Shown one piece after another: positions 10,789 through 59,304 of a DNA stretch of 64,000 bases. Within the stretch, counting starts at the first letter, position 1. The number at the start of each line of letters is the position of its first letter. Below the pieces are notes generated by a model. The model saw nothing but the letters and a program-made list of their open reading frames with translations. It had not been told where the DNA came from and did not search any database. Origin of the DNA: a virus; IMG/VR virus record IMGVR_UViG_3300031261_000003, positions 1 through 64,000 of that record, one strand, 5' to 3'. The position numbers and the translations under genes are program-made.

Positions 10789-11235
10789 TTAGGCGTCCTT
10801 TAAGAACGCCGCGCGAGCTTCGACGAGCCCGACGCTCAAAGCGTCGCCGCTCTGGCGATTGGCTTCGTAGGCGACCTTCGCCGCGACAAAGCGCTTAAGC
10901 GTCTCTTGAGCTTCGGCCGGAACGCCAGCGCCCCAATTTTCGAGAAACTTCGCAGCCTCGGCCGCGTCGCAATATTCGCTAAGGCCGCGCGAAACGACAT
11001 GGCCCGCTTCGTCGAGATACATTGCCGCGCCGAACTTGCAGTATGTTCCGGCTTTTGGCTTGTTCCAAACGAGCCCGGCGCGATTCGGATTCGTCGTTTG
11101 CGAGACGAGGCGGCAACCGAAGCCCGGCTTGTATTCGATCCAATAGCGGATCGTGCAGCGAAGGCGATAGCCGTAGGGATAATCGGCGACGACGTAGGCG
11201 GTTTCTGGCGAGATATGTCCGACGAGGTTGGTCAT
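10789..11235 (-). CDS. hypothetical protein, 148 aa
   Basis: MTNLVGHISPETAYVVADYP, with paired beta strands (YRLRCTIRYWIEYKPGFGCR, then LVSQTTNP) and a helical C-terminus ending RAAFLKDA. The segment KAGTYCKFGAAMYLDEAGHV suggests a small two-domain alpha/beta protein. No family recognised. It sits alone between a leader hairpin and a 3' hairpin. Confidence 0.6.
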   Translation of the reverse strand: MTNLVGHISPETAYVVADYPYGYRLRCTIRYWIEYKPGFGCRLVSQTTNPNRAGLVWNKPKAGTYCKFGAAMYLDEAGHVVSRGLSEYCDAAEAAKFLENWGAGVPAEAQETLKRFVAAKVAYEANRQSGDALSVGLVEARAAFLKDA

Positions 11236-11249
11236 TGGCTTGTCTCCGT

Positions 11250-11265
11250 TCGGGTGGCGTCCCGA
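11250..11265 (-). promoter_or_regulatory. ACGCCA-loop leader hairpin (copy 4)
   Basis: Minus strand TCGGG-ACGCCA-CCCGA: perfect 5-bp stem, then ACGGAGACAAGCCA before ATG. A TTGCTA-N17-TAAGTT promoter is readable at about 11270-11315. Confidence 0.8.
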
Positions 11266-14694: not shown

Positions 14695-15471
14695 TCAGCC
14701 GACTTTGTAAAAAGTCTTGCCGTCGCTTATCGTCTTGGTGACATTCAGGCCGAGTTTTTTACGAGCGATCTGTGAAATATTCCAACGACACGAGTCGAAG
14801 TTCCAACCTGTCGCGCTGGCAAGCTCCTCAATCGTTACGCCGGTTTTGCTGGATAGAAGCGAAACCATCGTGGAGATATTTGACGATCCATCGCCGCGCT
14901 TGCTGGCGGCCGTCTTGCCCTTCACGGCGGCGACCTTGGCGACTATCGCAACCTTGGCGACTTTGCCGCCCTTGGCGCTCTTAACGGCCTTGGCAGCTTC
15001 GCTCCAAGCCTTCGCGTCGAAGGGACCCCAAACCCAATCGCCGCGCCCGGTTTTCTTGGCGAAGAAATCGACGCCCTCGGCCGCGTCTTTGCCGAAAGCT
15101 TGGCGCGCTTCGGCGAGCGCCTGCGCTTGGCTCATGCAGTGGCCGCTTTTCGGCGTTGCCGCGCCCTTGACGACCACTTCCAAGGCAACCGCGGGTGGCG
15201 AGTCCAGTTCGGACGTCGGCAGGGCGTTCAACTCCGCGGCCGCGATCTGCTGGATGCGAGTGGCGGGCGTCTCGTCGGCCGGCGCGGCGAAAACGACGGC
15301 GAGCTTCGCGGCGGCGGAAACGCTCTGCATGGCCTCTTTCGTCTTAGCGCGGTCGGCGGCGGCCTTCGTTGCGCGCTTGGCGGCTTTGATCTCGGCGGCG
15401 GAAGCGTCGGCTTTGGCGGCGACGTCGAGAGCGTCAAAAGCGGCGGTGTTGTCGGCGGCGAGCTTGATCAT
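14695..15471 (-). CDS. DUF3489-containing protein
   Basis: 258 aa from the ATG behind the hairpin leader (MIKLAADNTAAFDALDVAAK). The first 130 residues are Ala-rich. A middle segment (GVDFFAKKTGRGDWVWGPFD) is followed by an Ala/Lys linker. The C-terminal 60 residues fit DUF3489, a winged-helix-like domain (GVTIEELASATGWNFDSCRW, ARKKLGLNVTKT). These proteins occur in alphaproteobacterial phages and genomes and are likely DNA-binding regulators, although no target is known. Single-gene unit with its own promoter and terminator. Confidence 0.8.
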   Translation of the reverse strand: MIKLAADNTAAFDALDVAAKADASAAEIKAAKRATKAAADRAKTKEAMQSVSAAAKLAVVFAAPADETPATRIQQIAAAELNALPTSELDSPPAVALEVVVKGAATPKSGHCMSQAQALAEARQAFGKDAAEGVDFFAKKTGRGDWVWGPFDAKAWSEAAKAVKSAKGGKVAKVAIVAKVAAVKGKTAASKRGDGSSNISTMVSLLSSKTGVTIEELASATGWNFDSCRWNISQIARKKLGLNVTKTISDGKTFYKVG

Positions 15472-15485
15472 GTTGGTCTCCGGTT

Positions 15486-15501
15486 CGGGATGGCGTTCCC
15501 G
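15486..15501 (-). promoter_or_regulatory. ACGCCA-loop leader hairpin (copy 6)
   Basis: Minus strand CGGGA-ACGCCA-TCCCG: perfect 5-bp stem, then AACCGGAGACCAAC and ATG. Upstream, TTGCGA-N17-TATCTC reads as a promoter in the AT-rich region 15503-15580. Confidence 0.8.
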
Positions 15502-26383: not shown

Positions 26384-26634
26384 CGGAGCCGGACGATCTC
26401 TTTCCGCGTCCCTATGTCGAGGAGCTTCGGAAAAGATCGGACGGCTACCGCAGGCGCGCAAAAACTATCGCCGACGCCGCGATTCAATTCGCTATCGCCG
26501 CCGAATTGACAGCGCGCGGCGCGAGCCCGTCGCGCACGGCCGAGGTCAGCACAGCGCGAATCTCGATTGACGCCAACGGCCTCGTCGTCGGCGTCGAGGC
26601 CGCCGTTGCCGCGTTTCTCGACCAAGCCAAGTAG
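26380..26634 (+). CDS. hypothetical protein, 84 aa
   Basis: MTEPDDLFPRPYVEELRKRS with basic helix, then ARISIDANGLVVGVEAAVAA. No family recognised. It ends 52 nt before the sheath gene leader. Confidence 0.55.
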   Translation: MTEPDDLFPRPYVEELRKRSDGYRRRAKTIADAAIQFAIAAELTARGASPSRTAEVSTARISIDANGLVVGVEAAVAAFLDQAK

Positions 26635-26644
26635 CAACCTACCT

Positions 26645-26685
26645 ATCGAGCGCTTGCCGCCCTGGGGTTTCCAAATGGAGCCCCC
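26645..26685 (+). promoter_or_regulatory. sheath leader element with RBS hairpin
   Basis: ATCGAGCGC-T-TGCCGCCCT followed by GGGGTTTCC, AAAT, GGAGCCCC. The last part folds as a GGGG...CCCC hairpin with TCC/GGA at the tip, so the GGAG ribosome site is on the 3' side of the stem. The same element precedes the tube gene. Confidence 0.7.
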
Positions 26686-28599
26686 ATGTCGCAAATCGTC
26701 CAATTAGGCGCGGTAAATCTTGCCTCGCTCAACGTCCCGCAAGTCCTCGTTCAAGTTGTGCCGCCGCAGTTTTTATATGGCGGCGTACAAACCAACGTCG
26801 GCGGCGTCATCGGAACCGCGTCTTGGGGTCCAACAAACTCACCGCAGCCCTACGGCACGGTCGGGCAGGCTGCGCAGATCTTCGGCCCAACGATAAACCG
26901 CCTCTACGATATCGTTGGTCACTCGACGCTCGCCATGGCGCAAGGCGCGAATTTCCTCTACGGCGTGCGCGTGACAGACGGCACGGACACCGCTGCCTCG
27001 GCGCCCATTTATTCGCCCGCCCCGGTTGCGGCGACCGGCACGGTCACGTTTACGGTTCAACCCGTCGCCGCCAGCACTATGACGCTCAATGGCTCGATTT
27101 GGACGTTCGTCGCCGCGCTCACGACCGGCCTGCAAATCCTGATAGGCTCGACGCTGGCGCTAACGCTGACGGCCGCGGTTGCGGCGCTGGCGGCCTCGGC
27201 CGACGTCAATACTGCGAAAATGTCCTACTCGACGTCGGCGACCGTCCTGACGACGACGGCCGTTGCGACCGGCACAGGCGGCAATGCGTTGACGCTGGCG
27301 ACCGACGTTACCGGCGCCACGGTTTCGGCCGCTACGCTCGCGGGCGGCGCGGCCGGCACGCTCGGCATGACGCTCACCGGCAAATATACCGGATCGAACG
27401 GGCAGAACTTGAAGGGCCAGCTTGGGCCGGGCTCAAAGTATGGCTCGTATAAGCTGGTTGTCATCCTGCCCGGAAATTCGCCGGAAGTTTACGACAACAT
27501 CACCGGCTCGGGCCTCGCGCTTTGGATAAACTTGTGCGCCGCCGTCAACAACGGCAATTCATCTACGCGCGGGCCTTCGGCCATTGTCGTTGCGACCGTT
27601 GGAACGGCGACCGTCGCGCCGATCACCGGAACCAACGCCATTGCATTTACAGGCGGCACGGACGGCGCGTCAACCGTCACAACTTCGACTCTCGTCGGCG
27701 TCGATACGCTGCCGCGCACCGGCATGTATTGCCTGCGAAATACCGGCGTCAGCAAGGCCATGATCGCGGACTTGTCGGACTCGACGTCTTGGTCAACGCA
27801 AGTCGCTTTCGGCCTGTCCATCGGTTGCGAAATGATCGCAACGACGCCGGCCGGCGACACGATCACCAACGCGGCGACAGAGGTTGCGCTTGCCGGCATC
27901 GACTCGTTTACCCTCTCGATCATGTTCGGCGATTGGGTCTATTGGCTCGACACGTACAACGGGATTCCCATGCGGTTGTCCTCGCCGCAGTCCGTCAAGC
28001 TCGGCGTGCTCTGCGCTCTCAGCCCGCAGAACAATCCGCTCAACAAACCCATTCAGGGCATTATCGGCACGCAAAAAACGCAGTCCGGACTTCCCTACAC
28101 CGACAGCGATTTGCAGATCATCGGCAATTCGCAAATGGACGTCGTGGGCGTCAATCCCATGGTGGGAACGACGTATTTCTCGTGTCTTTTCGGAAAGAAT
28201 ACCTCGTCAAACCCCGTCACGCAGGGCGACGAATATACGCAGATCACGTATTTTCTGGCGAAATCGCTCTTTAAGATCGGCGCCCCCTACGTCGGCGCGG
28301 TGCAGACGATAGCCGAGCGGTTGCAGGCCCTAACCTCGATCCTGCAATTTCTCGCGTTGATTTCGGTTCCCGTTGCGCTCGGCGGCCCCGGAATCCTGTC
28401 GAGCTTGACCGGCGGGCAACCGTATCAAGTCATTCTGAACGCGACGAACAACAGCCAGACCAGCGCCGCGCTTGGCTTCCAGAACGCCTATGTCAAGTGC
28501 GTTTACGGCCCGATTGTCCGGTATTTCATCTTCTCGTTGGAAGGCGGCGCGTCCGTGATCGTCTCGACAACGGCGCCGAATATGAACCAAGCCGCGTAA
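26686..28599 (+). CDS. contractile tail sheath protein
   Basis: 637 aa. The N-terminus (PQFLYGGVQTNVGGVIGTAS, then WGPTNSPQPY) is the typical sheath start. An Ala/Thr-rich beta insert spans about residues 115-230. The conserved sheath domain follows (GKYTGSNGQNLKGQLGPGSK, later DWVYWLDTYNGIPMRL) and the C-terminus is VRYFIFSLEGGASVIVS. It surrounds the tube and contracts to drive it through the host envelope. Preceded by a leader shared with the tube gene. Confidence 0.88.
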   Translation: MSQIVQLGAVNLASLNVPQVLVQVVPPQFLYGGVQTNVGGVIGTASWGPTNSPQPYGTVGQAAQIFGPTINRLYDIVGHSTLAMAQGANFLYGVRVTDGTDTAASAPIYSPAPVAATGTVTFTVQPVAASTMTLNGSIWTFVAALTTGLQILIGSTLALTLTAAVAALAASADVNTAKMSYSTSATVLTTTAVATGTGGNALTLATDVTGATVSAATLAGGAAGTLGMTLTGKYTGSNGQNLKGQLGPGSKYGSYKLVVILPGNSPEVYDNITGSGLALWINLCAAVNNGNSSTRGPSAIVVATVGTATVAPITGTNAIAFTGGTDGASTVTTSTLVGVDTLPRTGMYCLRNTGVSKAMIADLSDSTSWSTQVAFGLSIGCEMIATTPAGDTITNAATEVALAGIDSFTLSIMFGDWVYWLDTYNGIPMRLSSPQSVKLGVLCALSPQNNPLNKPIQGIIGTQKTQSGLPYTDSDLQIIGNSQMDVVGVNPMVGTTYFSCLFGKNTSSNPVTQGDEYTQITYFLAKSLFKIGAPYVGAVQTIAERLQALTSILQFLALISVPVALGGPGILSSLTGGQPYQVILNATNNSQTSAALGFQNAYVKCVYGPIVRYFIFSLEGGASVIVSTTAPNMNQAA

Positions 28600-28623
28600 C
28601 GCTCGCAACCCGAAAACCAGCCC

Positions 28624-28669
28624 ATCGAGCGCGTGCCGCCCTGGGGCTTCCTAACCGGAGTCCTCGGCC
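28624..28669 (+). promoter_or_regulatory. tube leader element with RBS hairpin (second copy)
   Basis: ATCGAGCGC-G-TGCCGCCCT then GGGGCTTCC, TAACC, GGAGTCCTC. Of the 28 nt from ATCGAG to TTCC, 26 match the sheath leader, and the stem changes (CCCC to CCTC) keep pairing through a G-T pair. The GGAG lies in the stem again. Confidence 0.7.
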
Positions 28670-29107
28670 ATGTCGCTCAATCAAATCACCTTCGGGCATA
28701 GCGTATCGTTCAATATCATTTCGCCGATTACCGGCGCGATCCTGACGCTGACCAACATAACCGAGTTCGACAGCAAGCAAGTAACCGAAAAAGTCTCGTC
28801 GAAGCCGCTCAACGCGCCGCCCATCGTTGTGCATACGCCTAACGGCTGGTCGGGAACGATCACGTTTGATCGGTCTGACAATACGATAGACAGCTTTTTT
28901 GCTGCGCAAGAGGCCGCCTACTGGGCGAACGCGCAAACTTACGCCGGCACGATCTATGAATTTATTCTCGAACTCAACGGCGCGGTTTCGCAGTACCGAT
29001 ACGACAGCGTTGCGCTGACGTTGCAGGACGCGGGCAAGAAAGCCAGCCAAACCAAAATCACCCTCAAAGTCGAGTTTGAAGCGAGCCAGCGTGTGCTCGT
29101 GCAATAG
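28670..29107 (+). CDS. tail tube protein
   Basis: 145 aa, beta-rich (SVSFNIISPITGAILTLTNI, WSGTITFDRSDNTIDSFFAA, ALTLQDAGKKASQTKITLKV). It follows the sheath gene, as in other myoviruses, and precedes the tail chaperone. It builds the inner tube on which the sheath assembles. Confidence 0.82.
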   Translation: MSLNQITFGHSVSFNIISPITGAILTLTNITEFDSKQVTEKVSSKPLNAPPIVVHTPNGWSGTITFDRSDNTIDSFFAAQEAAYWANAQTYAGTIYEFILELNGAVSQYRYDSVALTLQDAGKKASQTKITLKVEFEASQRVLVQ

Positions 29108-48768: not shown

Positions 48769-49091
48769 AAGAGATCGTTGGCCAGGGATCGCAAATGGTC
48801 ACAAACATCCTGGCTGGAAAATTCGCCCTGCTTTGTCCATTCGCTATGTCCGGCCATGTCGTAGAAATCAGCCGCCGCTCTCAGCGCCGTTGCGCTTTCG
48901 CGGTCTATCGCGGCTATGGCGGCGGCGGCGAGGCGGTCGCAATCAATTGTGCCGTCAAATAGGATGGTCGTTCCCGCAATCTCGTCGCCGGATTCGTTGA
49001 CGGGAAATTGCCAGAAATTGCAAGGACCGCCCGAGCCCTTTTGCAGTTCGGCAAGGATCGCCAGCGCAACCCGTTCAAGTTCGTTGTTCAT
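48747..49091 (-). CDS. hypothetical protein, 114 aa
   Basis: From ATG (MNNELERVALAILAELQKGS). Alpha/beta with FDGTIDCDRLAAAAIAAIDR and SLANDLLKEKPPV. The gene overlaps the stop of the TPR gene by 17 nt and its end runs through the plus-strand terminator. No family recognised. Confidence 0.55.
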   Translation of the reverse strand: MNNELERVALAILAELQKGSGGPCNFWQFPVNESGDEIAGTTILFDGTIDCDRLAAAAIAAIDRESATALRAAADFYDMAGHSEWTKQGEFSSQDVCDHLRSLANDLLKEKPPV

Positions 49092-51009
49092 CGTCGCGCC
49101 TCTCTCGCCACGTCTGCCACATATCGCGATAGGCGGCTTCCATTTTACGCGCAAAACCGGGCGCGTCGCATAACGGCGAGGCCGCCATGCGCGGCCGCAA
49201 AGTTCGGCGCAGCTCGGTTAGGCGCTTGGAATCGCCGGCCAGCGCGGCGGCGATCTCGACATAATCTTCAACGGAGTCGGCGACGAGATCGGGCAGGCCG
49301 ACTTGCGCGAGCAAGCTCGCGCCGACGCGGGCTGCATGACGGTCGCCGCGAAGCGTAACAACCGGCACGCCCATCCACAGCGTATCGCAAGTCGTCGTTG
49401 CGCCATTGTAGGGGAACGGATCAAGCGCAATGTCTAGGCGGCCGTAAGACCCGAGGGCGTCTGCGATGTTGGATGACCACCCCTCCAACTCAATCCGATC
49501 CGCCGCAATGCCGCGTTCGCCAAGCTTGCCGAGAAGCAACGCGCGGGCGCCGGCGTCGGCGAACGGCTTTCCCTTTAGGAGCAAGCGCGCGTGAGGAAGC
49601 CGCGTCAACAGCCGCGCCCATGCGTCTAAGGTCGATGCCGAAAGCTTCGCCGGATTGTTGAACGAACCGAACGTCACGACGCCCGTCATCAAGCTCGGCG
49701 GCGCGGCCGGCTCGGGGGCGTCCTGCGCGGCGCCGTAGCAGAAGTAGCCGTCCGGCAGGCGCACAAGCGTTTCGCTGGCCCAAGCGTCGGCCCCGACCGG
49801 ATCGGTTATCGCGTCAACGAGCTGGTAGTCGATAGCGTCGAGGCCCGTCGTGTTCGGATAGCCGAGCCAAGTCGCTTGCACAGGCGCGGCCTTGCGGGCG
49901 AAAACACCGAGCCGATTATTCGCGGTGTGGCCGGCAAGATCAACCAAAATGTCTATGCCGTCCGCTCGAATGCGTTCGGCAAGCGCGTCGTCGGTAAGCC
50001 CCGCGGTTGTCAACCACTGCTCGGAGAGTTCGCGCAAACGCGCCGTTACCGCGTCCGGCCGCGCAACCTCGGCGTAGCAGAAAATCTCCACCGCTTCTCG
50101 ATCATGCTCCCTCAACAGCGGCTCGAAAAAGCGCGAAACCGGATGCTCGCGCAAGTCCGGCGAGACATAGCCGATGCGCAGCCGCCGCCCCGCTTGGCGG
50201 GCGTTGGCGAACGCAACAGGCGTCGTCGCTTGCCGGCATAATCTCGCGCCCCATTCTCGATGCTCGGCGAAAAGGCTTTCGGCCGTCTCTCGGTCGTTAT
50301 AGTTCAGATACAACAGCAGGTTGCCATGCGCCCCTGCATAGTCCGGCTTGATCGCGATAGCGCGGCGGCAGGCGGCGATAGCTTCGTCTAACTTTCCTTG
50401 ATCCACCAACGCGGCGCCAAGATTGGAATACGCCTGCGCATAGTTTGGTCTGAGCGCGAAAGCGCGGCGATAGGAAGCAATTGCCTCGTCTAGTTTGCCC
50501 TGGCCTTGGAGCACGACGCCAAGGCTGTAGTGCGCCTCCGCAATGTCGGGCTTGATGGCGATGGCGCGACGGCAGGCAATGGCTGCTTCGTTGCCTCGGC
50601 GCAGTAATATCAACGCAGCGCCAAGATTGGAATGAGCCAAAGCAAAGTCTGGGTTAAGATCAATGGCGCTCTGGCAGGCGGCAACCGCTTCGTTGGACTT
50701 TCCTTGATCCACCAACGCAGCGCCGAGGTTGGCATAAGCCTCGGCGTGATGGGGGCTTAGCGCGACGGCGCGGCGATAAGCGATGACCGCCTCGTCTAGC
50801 TTGCCCTGACCTTGGAGTGCATTGCCGAGGTTGGCAAAAGCGTGGGCGTGATCGGGGTTAACGCCGATGGCGCGGCGATAGCACGCCTCGGCCGGCAACA
50901 ACCGCCCCGCAAGGTGATGTTCTACGCCTTCCGTCATGACGTCGGCGGCGCTCTCTGGCGCGATTGAGGGCTTGAGTTTTGCGCTGGCGCGCCGCTGTTG
51001 ACGGTTCAT
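49075..51009 (-). CDS. TPR-repeat O-GlcNAc-transferase-like glycosyltransferase (GT41/SPINDLY type)
   Basis: 644 aa. The N-terminal about 235 residues hold six TPR units (e.g. HAFANLGNALQGQGKLDEAV, AHYSLGVVLQGQGKLDEAIA), which usually bind partner proteins. The C-terminal catalytic part has RIGYVSPDLREHPVSRFFEP, ILVDLAGHTANNRLGVFARK (with the His), APVQATWLGYPNTTGLDAID, LLLKGKPFADAG and DPFPYNGATTTCDTLWMGVP, as in O-GlcNAc transferases and their bacterial relatives. It probably transfers a sugar from a nucleotide donor to a protein. Such full-length enzymes are rare in phages; the target may be virion or host surface proteins (inference). Confidence 0.88.
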   Translation of the reverse strand: MNRQQRRASAKLKPSIAPESAADVMTEGVEHHLAGRLLPAEACYRRAIGVNPDHAHAFANLGNALQGQGKLDEAVIAYRRAVALSPHHAEAYANLGAALVDQGKSNEAVAACQSAIDLNPDFALAHSNLGAALILLRRGNEAAIACRRAIAIKPDIAEAHYSLGVVLQGQGKLDEAIASYRRAFALRPNYAQAYSNLGAALVDQGKLDEAIAACRRAIAIKPDYAGAHGNLLLYLNYNDRETAESLFAEHREWGARLCRQATTPVAFANARQAGRRLRIGYVSPDLREHPVSRFFEPLLREHDREAVEIFCYAEVARPDAVTARLRELSEQWLTTAGLTDDALAERIRADGIDILVDLAGHTANNRLGVFARKAAPVQATWLGYPNTTGLDAIDYQLVDAITDPVGADAWASETLVRLPDGYFCYGAAQDAPEPAAPPSLMTGVVTFGSFNNPAKLSASTLDAWARLLTRLPHARLLLKGKPFADAGARALLLGKLGERGIAADRIELEGWSSNIADALGSYGRLDIALDPFPYNGATTTCDTLWMGVPVVTLRGDRHAARVGASLLAQVGLPDLVADSVEDYVEIAAALAGDSKRLTELRRTLRPRMAASPLCDAPGFARKMEAAYRDMWQTWRERRDDEQRT

Positions 51010-51290
51010 TTTCCGGCCTCCGGTTGCGTGCGGGCGCGAATAGCGTTGGCAATCCACGACCCGACGCGGCGCACGAATCCTTCTTCGATATCAAACAGCG
51101 GATTGTCAGCCGCAGTTGCTGCAATCTTCGCACATTCCTCGCGCTCTTTTGCGAGCGCGGCATTTGCGGCGGCGAGGTCGGCGCGGAGTTTATCGTATTC
51201 CGCCTTCCATCCCACGGCCGCCTCGGCAGCGTTCCCAGGCACGCGACCATCAGGGAATTGAAGCCGGCAAATGGGTGGGTCTATCAACAA
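51006..51290 (-). CDS. coiled-coil hypothetical protein, up to 94 aa
   Basis: KAEYDKLRADLAAANAALAK is a heptad coiled coil; the end is VGSWIANAIRARTQ. Overlaps the TPR gene by ATGA. The first start is a TTG with no clear ribosome site; a GTG at 51242 is an alternative. Confidence 0.5.
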   Translation of the reverse strand: MLIDPPICRLQFPDGRVPGNAAEAAVGWKAEYDKLRADLAAANAALAKEREECAKIAATAADNPLFDIEEGFVRRVGSWIANAIRARTQPEAGK

Positions 51291-52147: not shown

Positions 52148-52330
52148 TGACAACTCCCCGGCCTAAAGGCCGAGGCTTCTAGCTTCTCAGGCAACAGCGC
52201 GAACGCGGTTCTTGCGAACTGCGCTACGTCTGACATTGCCTCCACTAGCAGCAGCGGGCTGCCCGCCCGCCAATATCCGCAACCCTTCGGCGCGGATATT
52301 CCTTGCCGCGTTGATGTCCCTGTCGTGGTG
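52148..52330 (-). ncRNA. probable omega (reRNA) guide RNA
   Basis: By family analogy, the RNA covers the 3' part of tnpB and the RE palindrome; the guide begins just outside the RE. Here the guide would come from sequence near 52120-52147, at the AT-rich stretch with CATAAATCGACC. Extent is inferred, not seen directly. Confidence 0.45.
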
Positions 52331-53350
52331 TGCGGAACACTTGGCGCACGTCCAAAACCGAACATCGAGCGGCATCTTTTCGCAAACGAATCCACATTCG
52401 GAGCAGGCTTTCGAGCTTGGATACCAGCGGTCGCACTTGACGAACGCCTTACCGGCGCGTGTGGCCTTGTATTCCAAGAAGTTCGTCAGCATGGACCAAC
52501 CCACGTCGGCGGTAGCCTTCGCGAGATTATGGTTCGACATGATTCCCTTCACATGCAGGTCCTCGACGGCGATGACTTGGTTTTCGTTGACGATCCGTCG
52601 AGACAGTTTGTGCAGATAGTCTTTGCGGGCGCACGCGACGCGCTCATGCGCGCGAGCCACCAGCTTGCGAGCCTTATCGCGACTTTTGGAGCCTTTCATT
52701 TTGCGGGAAAGCGACCGCTGTTTCCGCTTGAGGTTACGCGTCGCCTTTTTCAGATGGCGCGGATTGTCGAACTTCGAGCCGTCGCTGGTGACGGCGAGAT
52801 GCGTCAGGCCAACGTCAACGCCGATAGCTTTTCCAACGGTCGAAACCTTGGGCGCTTTCTCGTCGTCTTCGGTGAGGATGGCAGCATGAAACTGGCCGCA
52901 GGCGTTGCGCGAGACGGTGACGGTTTTGATGCGCCCGTCGATCTCGCGGTGAACAACGCATTTGGTCCAGCCGACTTTCGGCAGATAGATTTTCGCGCCG
53001 TCCAGCTTTACGCGCTGCGGATATTGGATCGACTGGCGGTCGCGCTTCGACTTGAAGCGCGGATAGCGACCTCGTTTGGCAAAGAAATTCTCGAAGGCGC
53101 GCGCGAGGTTTTGCAGCGATTGTTGCAATGCCTGGGAGTCGGCCTCGCCAAGCCATTCAAACTCTTGCTTGAGTTTGGGCAGGCGGATCGCCATCGCATG
53201 ATAGTTCAGCCCTTTGCCGGTGGCGCGATAGAGTTCGCCGGTCAACGCAAGGGCATTGTTCCAGGCCCAACGCGCGCATCCGAACTGGACGGCCAGCGCT
53301 TGCGCTTGAGCGTCTGTTGGATAGAGGCGAATGCGCGTCGCGTTGAGCAT
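52187..53350 (-). CDS. tnpB: TnpB RNA-guided nuclease
   Basis: 387 aa. RuvC residues are intact: D179 in GVDVGLTHL, E263 in VIAVEDLHVKG and D345 in HHDRDINAARNI. A Cys4 finger (C316, C319, C335, C338) lies between the last two. The N-terminal domain starts TRIRLYPTDAQAQALAVQFG. With its reRNA/omega-RNA it can cut DNA beside a target motif. The length is normal for TnpB, and no frameshift is visible, so it may be active. Confidence 0.9.
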   Translation of the reverse strand: MLNATRIRLYPTDAQAQALAVQFGCARWAWNNALALTGELYRATGKGLNYHAMAIRLPKLKQEFEWLGEADSQALQQSLQNLARAFENFFAKRGRYPRFKSKRDRQSIQYPQRVKLDGAKIYLPKVGWTKCVVHREIDGRIKTVTVSRNACGQFHAAILTEDDEKAPKVSTVGKAIGVDVGLTHLAVTSDGSKFDNPRHLKKATRNLKRKQRSLSRKMKGSKSRDKARKLVARAHERVACARKDYLHKLSRRIVNENQVIAVEDLHVKGIMSNHNLAKATADVGWSMLTNFLEYKATRAGKAFVKCDRWYPSSKACSECGFVCEKMPLDVRFWTCAKCSAHHDRDINAARNIRAEGLRILAGGQPAAASGGNVRRSAVRKNRVRAVA

Positions 53351-57107: not shown

Positions 57108-57556
57108 TTTAATTTATGTATCGCGGATATTGCGTTTCTAAAAAAGAAATCAGAAAACAAGTTGCGAAGGTCTGGTGCTGGACTCGGATCGTATGGCTCA
57201 ATAGCTTCGTCGAATAAATGCGTAATCCGATTGCAAGTGTTTTCGCCGCTACGAAGGCTAACGATCATACGGAAATCGTCAAACATACTGCGACGTTCCG
57301 TCGATGGGCCTATAAGGCGCGCTTGCCATTGCTCGATTGTAAAACCATCCGTTAGCGGGTGACATATCCGACAAAGCAAGACGAGGTTGTCTGAGGCGTC
57401 CGCGCCACCGTCACAATGCGCGATGATGTGAGCCCTTTGCGTTTTTTGCTTAAAACGGCAAAACATACAATCATCAAGCTGCCCGTCATAACCGGCCGCG
57501 CTCCAATAGGCGAATATCTGGTGTTTCGTTGGCGTTGAGTTCGTATTGCGGCCCAT
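57104..57556 (-). CDS. HNH-endonuclease-like protein 2
   Basis: About 150 aa. CMFCRFKQKTQRAHIIAHCD, GGADASDNLVLLCRICHPLT is an HNH core (CxxC...H...N...CxxC). The C-terminal half is helical and acidic with no motif. Starts TGATG at the resolvase stop and ends in GTGA overlap with the next HNH. AT-rich. Confidence 0.75.
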   Translation of the reverse strand: MGRNTNSTPTKHQIFAYWSAAGYDGQLDDCMFCRFKQKTQRAHIIAHCDGGADASDNLVLLCRICHPLTDGFTIEQWQARLIGPSTERRSMFDDFRMIVSLRSGENTCNRITHLFDEAIEPYDPSPAPDLRNLFSDFFFRNAISAIHKLK

Positions 57557-58224
57557 CACGCGCTCTCTCTTAGTTGATCCAGAACCTTTTTGACGGCCAT
57601 ATGGCTGATATTAAAACCGCTAGCGGCGGCGATATCACGAAGCGACTTTCCAGCGGCCCGCATAGCAACCATGCGAACGATTGAAGCCTGCTCAGCCTCG
57701 TCTGGAATGAGCCGCTTTTTCTTGGCTTCTACGATGATGTGATATCCGAAGGGACGCGCGCCGCCGAGAAAATGCCCGCGTTCTTTTTGGTCGGCTTTTA
57801 CTTGACTGATGCGCTCGCGAATCCTGTCGCGCTCGGCCTCGGCGAAGGCGGCGGCTATTGTGAGAAACGTCTTGCTAAAACCATTGGCCGCCATGTCGCC
57901 ACCTAAGTCGAGAAGGTGAAGAGTGACGCCTTTCTCTTTCAGGCGCGCGACAATCTGCAACGCGTCGAGCGCGCTTCGGAACATACGGTCTAACTTGGCC
58001 GCAATAATTATATCGCCGCGCTGGATTCGTGCGACCAAGGCGCGGCCAATCGGCCGCTGGTCAATTGGAATTGAGCCAGAGACTCCTTCCTCAATCATAA
58101 TGTCGGTTACGTCGAAAGCGTGCATGTCCGCATACCCTCGGATCTGGCGCTGTTGAACGTCAAGGCTCTCGCCGAACTTCGCTTGTCGCCCCGTCGAGAC
58201 TCGACAATACCCAAAAATCGCCAT
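57556..58224 (-). CDS. serine site-specific recombinase (resolvase)
   Basis: 222 aa. S10 in GYCRVSTGRQ is the catalytic Ser; IIAAKLDRMFRSALDALQIV and FLTIAAAFAEAERDRIRERI are standard; a C-terminal HTH (SLRDIAAASGFNISHMAVKK) binds DNA. The length is that of resolvase/invertase enzymes, not large integrases. Divergent from the ParA operon; likely resolves multimers of the plasmid form, with a res site in the gap. Confidence 0.88.
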   Translation of the reverse strand: MAIFGYCRVSTGRQAKFGESLDVQQRQIRGYADMHAFDVTDIMIEEGVSGSIPIDQRPIGRALVARIQRGDIIIAAKLDRMFRSALDALQIVARLKEKGVTLHLLDLGGDMAANGFSKTFLTIAAAFAEAERDRIRERISQVKADQKERGHFLGGARPFGYHIIVEAKKKRLIPDEAEQASIVRMVAMRAAGKSLRDIAAASGFNISHMAVKKVLDQLRESA

Positions 58225-58480: not shown

Positions 58481-58666
58481 ATGCCAGCGAAAGCTGAAAA
58501 TCACGATCCGACCGCGCCGAGCGCGTTCGCAAAATCCATGCTGCGGCTCCCGACGTTCGATCTCGCGCAAATGCGCAAGACGCTCGCGCTCAAGCTCGCG
58601 GCCATCGACGCGGAGCTAGGCAAGCGCGGCGAGGCGACGACAACGACCTTGGGGGCAAAAACATGA
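58481..58666 (+). CDS. small protein preceding ParA, 61 aa
   Basis: MPAKAENHDPTAPSAFAKSM with helical RLPTFDLAQMRKTLALKLAA and an end GEATTTTLGAKT. GAGGGGAACC is the ribosome site. It overlaps parA by ATGA. Possibly a regulator; not recognised. Confidence 0.6.
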   Translation: MPAKAENHDPTAPSAFAKSMLRLPTFDLAQMRKTLALKLAAIDAELGKRGEATTTTLGAKT

Positions 58667-59304
58667 AAGTTATCACTTTTGCTGCGCAAAAAGGCGGCGC
58701 CGGAAAAACGGCGTTCGCCCAGCATCTTAGCGTTCTTGCCGAGACCGGCGGCGCCAATGTCTTGCTTATCGATACCGACCCGCAAGGCTCGCTCAACGCT
58801 TGGTATCAGTTGCGCGGTAGCGGGACGCCGATACTTATCAAGTCAACCGGAAAAGACTTGCGGCGGTTCGTCGATAGGGCGCGCAAGGATCGCGTGGATT
58901 ATTGCCTAGTCGATACGCCGCCGCACGCTCAACAGTCGATCCTCGACGCTATCGTGGTTTCTGATCTCGTCGTTGTTCCGCTGCGGCCGGCGTTCTCCGA
59001 TCTCAACGCGATTCCGGCGACGCTTGAACTCGCACAATCGGCCGGCAAAGCGCCGCTCGTCGTTATAAACCAAGCGCCTGTGGCGTCTGCTTGGGGCGAG
59101 CCGGCGCAAGTCAGCCAAGCGCGCGAGCTTATAACCGGCTTGGGCTCCAAGGTCGCACAAACCGTTATCGTCATGAGAGTCGCTATCCAGCACGCCCTTG
59201 CCGGCGGACAAACCGCTGGGGAATTTGAGCCCTCTGGAAAGGCCGCCGCCGAGATCGCGGCGCTTTGGGCGGAAATCAAAACCGAACTTGAAACGGAGAA
59301 ATAA
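58663..59304 (+). CDS. parA: ParA-type partition ATPase
   Basis: 213 aa. The deviant Walker A motif KGGAGKTAFAQH is at residues 10-21, LLIDTDPQGS at 34-43, and VDTPPHAQQ at 83-91. No N-terminal HTH, so it is a small type Ib/ParF-like ParA. It moves plasmid copies using the adjacent RHH protein as adaptor. It supports a plasmid-like lysogenic state. Confidence 0.9.
   Translation: MKVITFAAQKGGAGKTAFAQHLSVLAETGGANVLLIDTDPQGSLNAWYQLRGSGTPILIKSTGKDLRRFVDRARKDRVDYCLVDTPPHAQQSILDAIVVSDLVVVPLRPAFSDLNAIPATLELAQSAGKAPLVVINQAPVASAWGEPAQVSQARELITGLGSKVAQTVIVMRVAIQHALAGGQTAGEFEPSGKAAAEIAALWAEIKTELETEK

Follow-up and report, generated by a model that had tools for sequence, protein, structure and literature searches.

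The stretch of DNA analysed here, which we call the window, comes from an uncultured contractile-tailed virus; it comprises 64,000 nucleotides (positions 1 to 64,000 of the 69,434-base IMG/VR record IMGVR_UViG_3300031261_000003) and carries a tail sheath gene followed by a tail tube gene, each preceded by a copy of the same short element (Table 1). The sheath is identified by profile match and the tube by predicted fold. The family profile of the 637-aa protein matches solved tail sheaths, and by tblastn half the length of the protein aligns at 39% identity with the sheath annotated in Komagataeibacter phage phiKX1. For the 145-aa protein, a search of PDB sequences with the tube profile returned no match; its AlphaFold model (mean pLDDT 74) has a fold matching tail-tube proteins from phages and from contractile injection systems. 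The sheath also contains an insertion of about 115 residues, around residues 110–225 (phrog_28344), which nearly all aligned relatives lack; the sheaths of two relatives, L239 and L254, have a different insertion, further along.

Table 1. Genes and leader features at the sheath–tube locus, in positions of the window
Feature	Position	Strand	Basis
Weak upstream extension of repeat, sheath copy (AACCTACCT versus AACCAGCCC)	26636..26644	+	40-nt repeat, 85% identity
28-nt leader element, sheath copy	26645..26672	+	26/28 identity with 28624–28651
Predicted Shine–Dalgarno-sequestering hairpin, sheath copy (GGGGUUUC versus GGAGCCCC)	26664..26684	+	RNAfold; stability above 98% of shuffles, occlusion not significant
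Shine–Dalgarno GGAG, sheath gene	26677..26680	+	Sequence; 5 nt before ATG 26686
Tail sheath gene, 637 aa, with inserted domain absent from most relatives	26686..28599	+	Profile match to solved tail sheaths; tblastn to phiKX1 sheath; alignment
Weak upstream extension of repeat, tube copy	28615..28623	+	40-nt repeat comparison
28-nt leader element, tube copy	28624..28651	+	26/28 identity with 26645–26672
Predicted Shine–Dalgarno-sequestering hairpin, tube copy (GGGGCUUC versus GGAGUCCU)	28643..28664	+	RNAfold; shuffle comparison
Shine–Dalgarno GGAG, tube gene	28657..28660	+	Sequence; before ATG 28670
Tail tube gene, 145 aa	28670..29107	+	AlphaFold model matches tail-tube proteins in PDB; homologous to gene after sheath in relatives

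The original prediction was that a 28-nt sequence recurs, with 26 equal positions, ahead of sheath and tube, and its coordinates, its identity and both genes were verified. Read directly, the two 28-mers (ATCGAGCGCTTGCCGCCCTGGGGTTTCC and ATCGAGCGCGTGCCGCCCTGGGGCTTCC) differ by T/G at position 10 and T/C at position 24. They sit on the coding strand and end 13–18 nt 5′ of the start codon, with both GGAG Shine–Dalgarno (SD) sites falling 3′ of, and outside, the repeats. Similarity reaches weakly upstream (34 of 40 positions over 40 nt), and the conservation of the 28-mer is sharply bounded, the flanking bases and the SD spacer diverging between the copies. Allowing up to 3 mismatches, we found no third copy in the 64-kb window, where none is expected (0 in 100 shuffles), and no further copy in the full virus record. 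Among the 2145 gene-leader pairs of this genome, the sheath and tube leaders are by far the most similar, with a score of 22 against 12 for the runner-up. No Rfam family reached its gathering score within 26500–28800, the single sub-threshold chance match lying inside the sheath gene, and blastn of the window leader against phages gave nothing beyond chance matches of 18 bases to Gordonia phages.

The exact repeat was then compared with the leaders of relatives, gathered as sheath relatives from viral contigs and genomes, as capsid relatives, and from plasmids and phages, which together yielded about 195 deduplicated sheath–tube pairs. The 28-mer is absent from these pairs, except in L008, which belongs to the same virus (its contig shows 2 differences over 6.6 kb) and which we rejected as independent support. 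Ten other exact matches to the core in IMG/VR (TGCCGCCCTGGGGNNTCC) lie in unrelated sequence with no adjoining sheath or tube start, and we regard them as chance. The original prediction had called for the element to be sought in related contractile phages and had named, as an outcome that would refute it, relatives with the same two genes and no shared leader; the absence observed here comes close to that outcome. Across the sequences compared, the exact 28-nt repeat is limited to this virus lineage.

At the same two sites, relatives have a shared leader consisting of a GC hairpin, a T-run, GGAG, about 6 nt and the ATG (for example, AGCCGCCTTCGGGCGGCTTTCGCATTTCTAGGAGGCAGCCATG). To count these leaders, we used 113 sheath–tube pairs dereplicated at 85% identity, scored terminator-like hairpins with perfect stems and took the expectation from shuffles. 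Such hairpins precede the sheath gene in 31 of the 113 pairs (2.6 expected), the tube gene in 25 (1.4 expected) and both genes in 17; around the end of the tube gene they occur in 3 pairs (2.4 expected). In these leaders GGAG follows the stem mostly 6–13 nt on and the ATG usually 6 nt further, with the hairpin standing upstream of the SD and not around it. Hairpin leaders are strongly clustered on the sheath/tube tree, in one clade that consists mainly of soil viruses and of prophages of Burkholderiales and Xanthomonadales. The sheath of the group is matched by only two cultured phages. A limited literature search found no description of the hairpin–GGAG leaders of this phage group, which are probably undescribed so far.

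A covariance model, R1, was built from 42 hairpin leaders. Because these leaders were picked for having stems, covariation within the hairpin was left out as evidence, the enrichment over shuffles being the unbiased test. In the structural regions of eight relatives, 29 of 29 model matches fall on the coding strand and, besides sheath and tube, they include the immediate neighbours of the capsid gene on either side. Its occurrence at other structural genes means that the hairpin leader does not serve sheath and tube exclusively; it is a more general signal, present at some structural genes and with the greatest regularity at these two. Individual hairpin–GGAG leaders at other structural genes can be seen at L257:9329-9370, L257:11344-11386 and L256:3828-3869.

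By position, the window element corresponds to these hairpin leaders, and position is the only link between them. The element lies directly before sheath and tube in long stop-to-start gaps, of 51 nt before the sheath gene and 70 nt before the tube gene; the median gap before the tube gene is 59 nt in the hairpin group and 18 nt elsewhere. In neither window leader did we detect a GC stem of at least 5 pairs with a T-run before the GGAG. A search with the R1 model misses the window leaders: it scores 6.2 bits (E 9.1) at 26665-26688 and gives no hit at the tube leader. We rejected membership of the window element in the hairpin family. We also rejected the window tube leader (GGGGCTTCCTAACCGGAG) as a decayed hairpin, its likeness to the leader of L258 (GGCGGGCTTCCTATTTCCGGAG) being loose, visual and without statistical support. 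On the sheath/tube tree, the window sits on a long branch among sequences lacking the hairpin. The relative closest to it by capsid is L254 (77% identity), in which a hairpin, TCTTTT and GGAG stand ahead of a sheath gene cut off by the contig end; no sheath or tube was found by profile in L255, which is close by capsid, or in L256.

We would give an even chance to the reading that the 28-mers form the conserved core of an RNA leader of about 40–50 nt, duplicated (or mutually converted), specific to the lineage and acting in RNA. The site before sheath and tube probably controls the amount of tail protein made. At the RNA level, the element would affect read-through, initiation or the stability of the message. 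The hairpin of the relatives would either shield or set the ends of messages or serve as a leaky terminator just past the upstream stop codon, and it would leave an initiation site directly downstream. In the window virus, where the hairpin form is missing, the element could pair with the SD instead. The likely effect would be equal stability and equal initiation strength for the two most abundant tail messages, and a trans-acting repressor would not be required.

A narrower reading, which we consider unlikely, is that the leader is a translational control hairpin in which GGGGYUUC hides both GGAGs and whose opening, either on its own or through a tail protein, would match the synthesis of sheath to that of tube. 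The original prediction had proposed that GGGG...TTCC pairs with GGAG in both copies, with base changes that keep the pairing. RNAfold indeed pairs GGGGYUUC with GGAG and the next bases in both leaders, and in one common register, GGGGYUUC against GGAGYCCY, 8 of 8 pairs form in each copy; the minimum-energy registers of the two leaders are not the same. Both SDs are predicted to be closed, with an openness of 0.03 (sheath) and 0.00 (tube), the 7th and 3rd lowest of 81 SD-bearing gene starts (from crude gene calls), and the folding energies, better than 98–99% of shuffles, are reached by 2.2% (sheath) and 0.6% (tube) of shuffles that keep GGAG. Equal closure of the SD, however, is attained by 13% (sheath) and 8% (tube) of those shuffles and is not significant against composition-matched shuffles. 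The hairpins differ at three pairs, and all three changes preserve pairing, but each is one-sided, to or from G–U, with no double compensatory change between the two copies. Further, because the left arm is shared by descent, the two hairpins are not independent witnesses, and because that arm takes only 9 of the 28 conserved bases, the model leaves the conservation of the other 19 unexplained. Nor is the element kept in relatives, whose SDs are mostly less closed than those of the window. Translational matching of sheath and tube synthesis by the window element is possible.

Helices of this kind have precedents in phage mRNA: the SD and/or AUG is sequestered at the starts of T4 e, soc, 49 and I-TevI, and in the documented case of gene e this helix keeps long early transcripts silent (reviewed in PMC3014915). 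A helix of the e and soc type may form at the window SDs, which are predicted to be closed, with the shuffle frequencies given above; unlike gene e, the window has no known promoter inside the helix.

A broader proposal, to which we attach a low probability, extends to the whole group: mostly uncultured contractile-tailed phages and prophages, together with plasmid-borne phages, would fuse an intrinsic-terminator hairpin directly to the ribosome-binding sites of sheath and tube and of a few further structural genes, upstream translation would tune read-through to give a self-adjusting output ratio, and the window virus would have swapped the hairpin for an SD-closing 28-nt element. 

For the hairpins of the relatives, two known systems offer a comparison. 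In E. coli, translating ribosomes repress termination at intrinsic terminators close to a stop codon (PMC4824070). The leaders of the relatives, as putative terminators, likewise have terminator anatomy shortly after the upstream stop, whereas the window leader has neither stem nor T-run. A second comparison is offered by the intergenic CUUCGG hairpins reported in T4 and other phages, one T4 copy of which is described as stabilising the gene 32 message (Tuerk 1988, as cited in PMC8948821); the hairpin of the relatives may stabilise its message likewise. Compared with hairpins as described there, many relatives have GC stems with UUCG loops in their intergenic leaders, but their T-run leads straight into GGAG and their loops are often not UUCG, and the window leader is without such a stem.

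It is also improbable that the repeat is a by-product of duplication or gene conversion, or a recombination boundary, with no regulatory role. Direct repeats do flank the sheath gene on either side, and leaders resemble each other within genomes among the relatives too, with 20 identical bases in L203: in the hairpin clade, sheath and tube leaders of the same genome are more alike than those of different genomes (permutation p=0.002, to which shared composition may contribute), with no such resemblance outside the clade (p=0.49). The likeness within the clade also counts in favour of the RNA-leader reading. A neutral duplicate should drift evenly, however, and here conservation is confined to the 28-mer. 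Least probable of all is a DNA-level site, a phage-specific promoter or operator at sheath and tube only, which would suit a coding-strand repeat that is exact, sharply bounded and ends a short distance before the start codon, but no sigma-70-like promoter lies near either copy, the full record holds two copies in all and none before the capsid gene, and relatives carry hairpins at these sites and no repeated motif.

The nearest described repeated element adjacent to gene starts is the Start-Associated Sequence (SAS/ESAS) of Cluster K mycobacteriophages, a 13-bp sequence (GGGATAGGAGCCC) containing the SD that is present 11–19 times per genome, only at non-structural genes, with inverted repeats upstream of about half the copies (PMC3203893). 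As with the window element, this is a short asymmetric repeat placed directly before start codons in one orientation (PMC3203893), and in both GGGATAGGAGCCC and the window leader the SD has a G run on one side and a C run on the other. The window element differs in having two copies of 28 bp, at structural genes, with the SD outside the repeat; copy number, gene class and SD position thus all speak against classing it as an SAS, and we rejected that assignment.

Elsewhere in this genome, a further hairpin leader is common to two minus-strand genes, which start at 15471 and 11235; it stands directly before the SD, at 15469-15501 and 11233-11265 on the minus strand, and its two versions (CGGGAACGCCATCCCGAACCGGAGACCAACATG and CGGGACGCCACCCGAACGGAGACAAGCCAATG) have the same loop core, one of the two having an additional A–T pair. 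A 102-nt unit is present in four tandem copies at 50318-50833, inside a minus-strand open reading frame at 49075-51057. The window also contains a ParA-like partition gene (58663-59304), a resolvase or invertase gene (57556-58224) and an IS-type transposase gene (52187-53350), and sheath/tube relatives are found on plasmids of Pantoea, Rhodovastum, Aquitalea and Paraburkholderia, which together suggest a phage-plasmid lifestyle.

How contractile phages set the dosage of sheath to tube from one operon is seldom addressed. On the reading we favour, that of a duplicated RNA leader, a conserved site before both genes would hold a shared leader, of which two forms exist across a large and almost entirely uncultured group, and it would offer a defined target of 40–50 nt for experiments.
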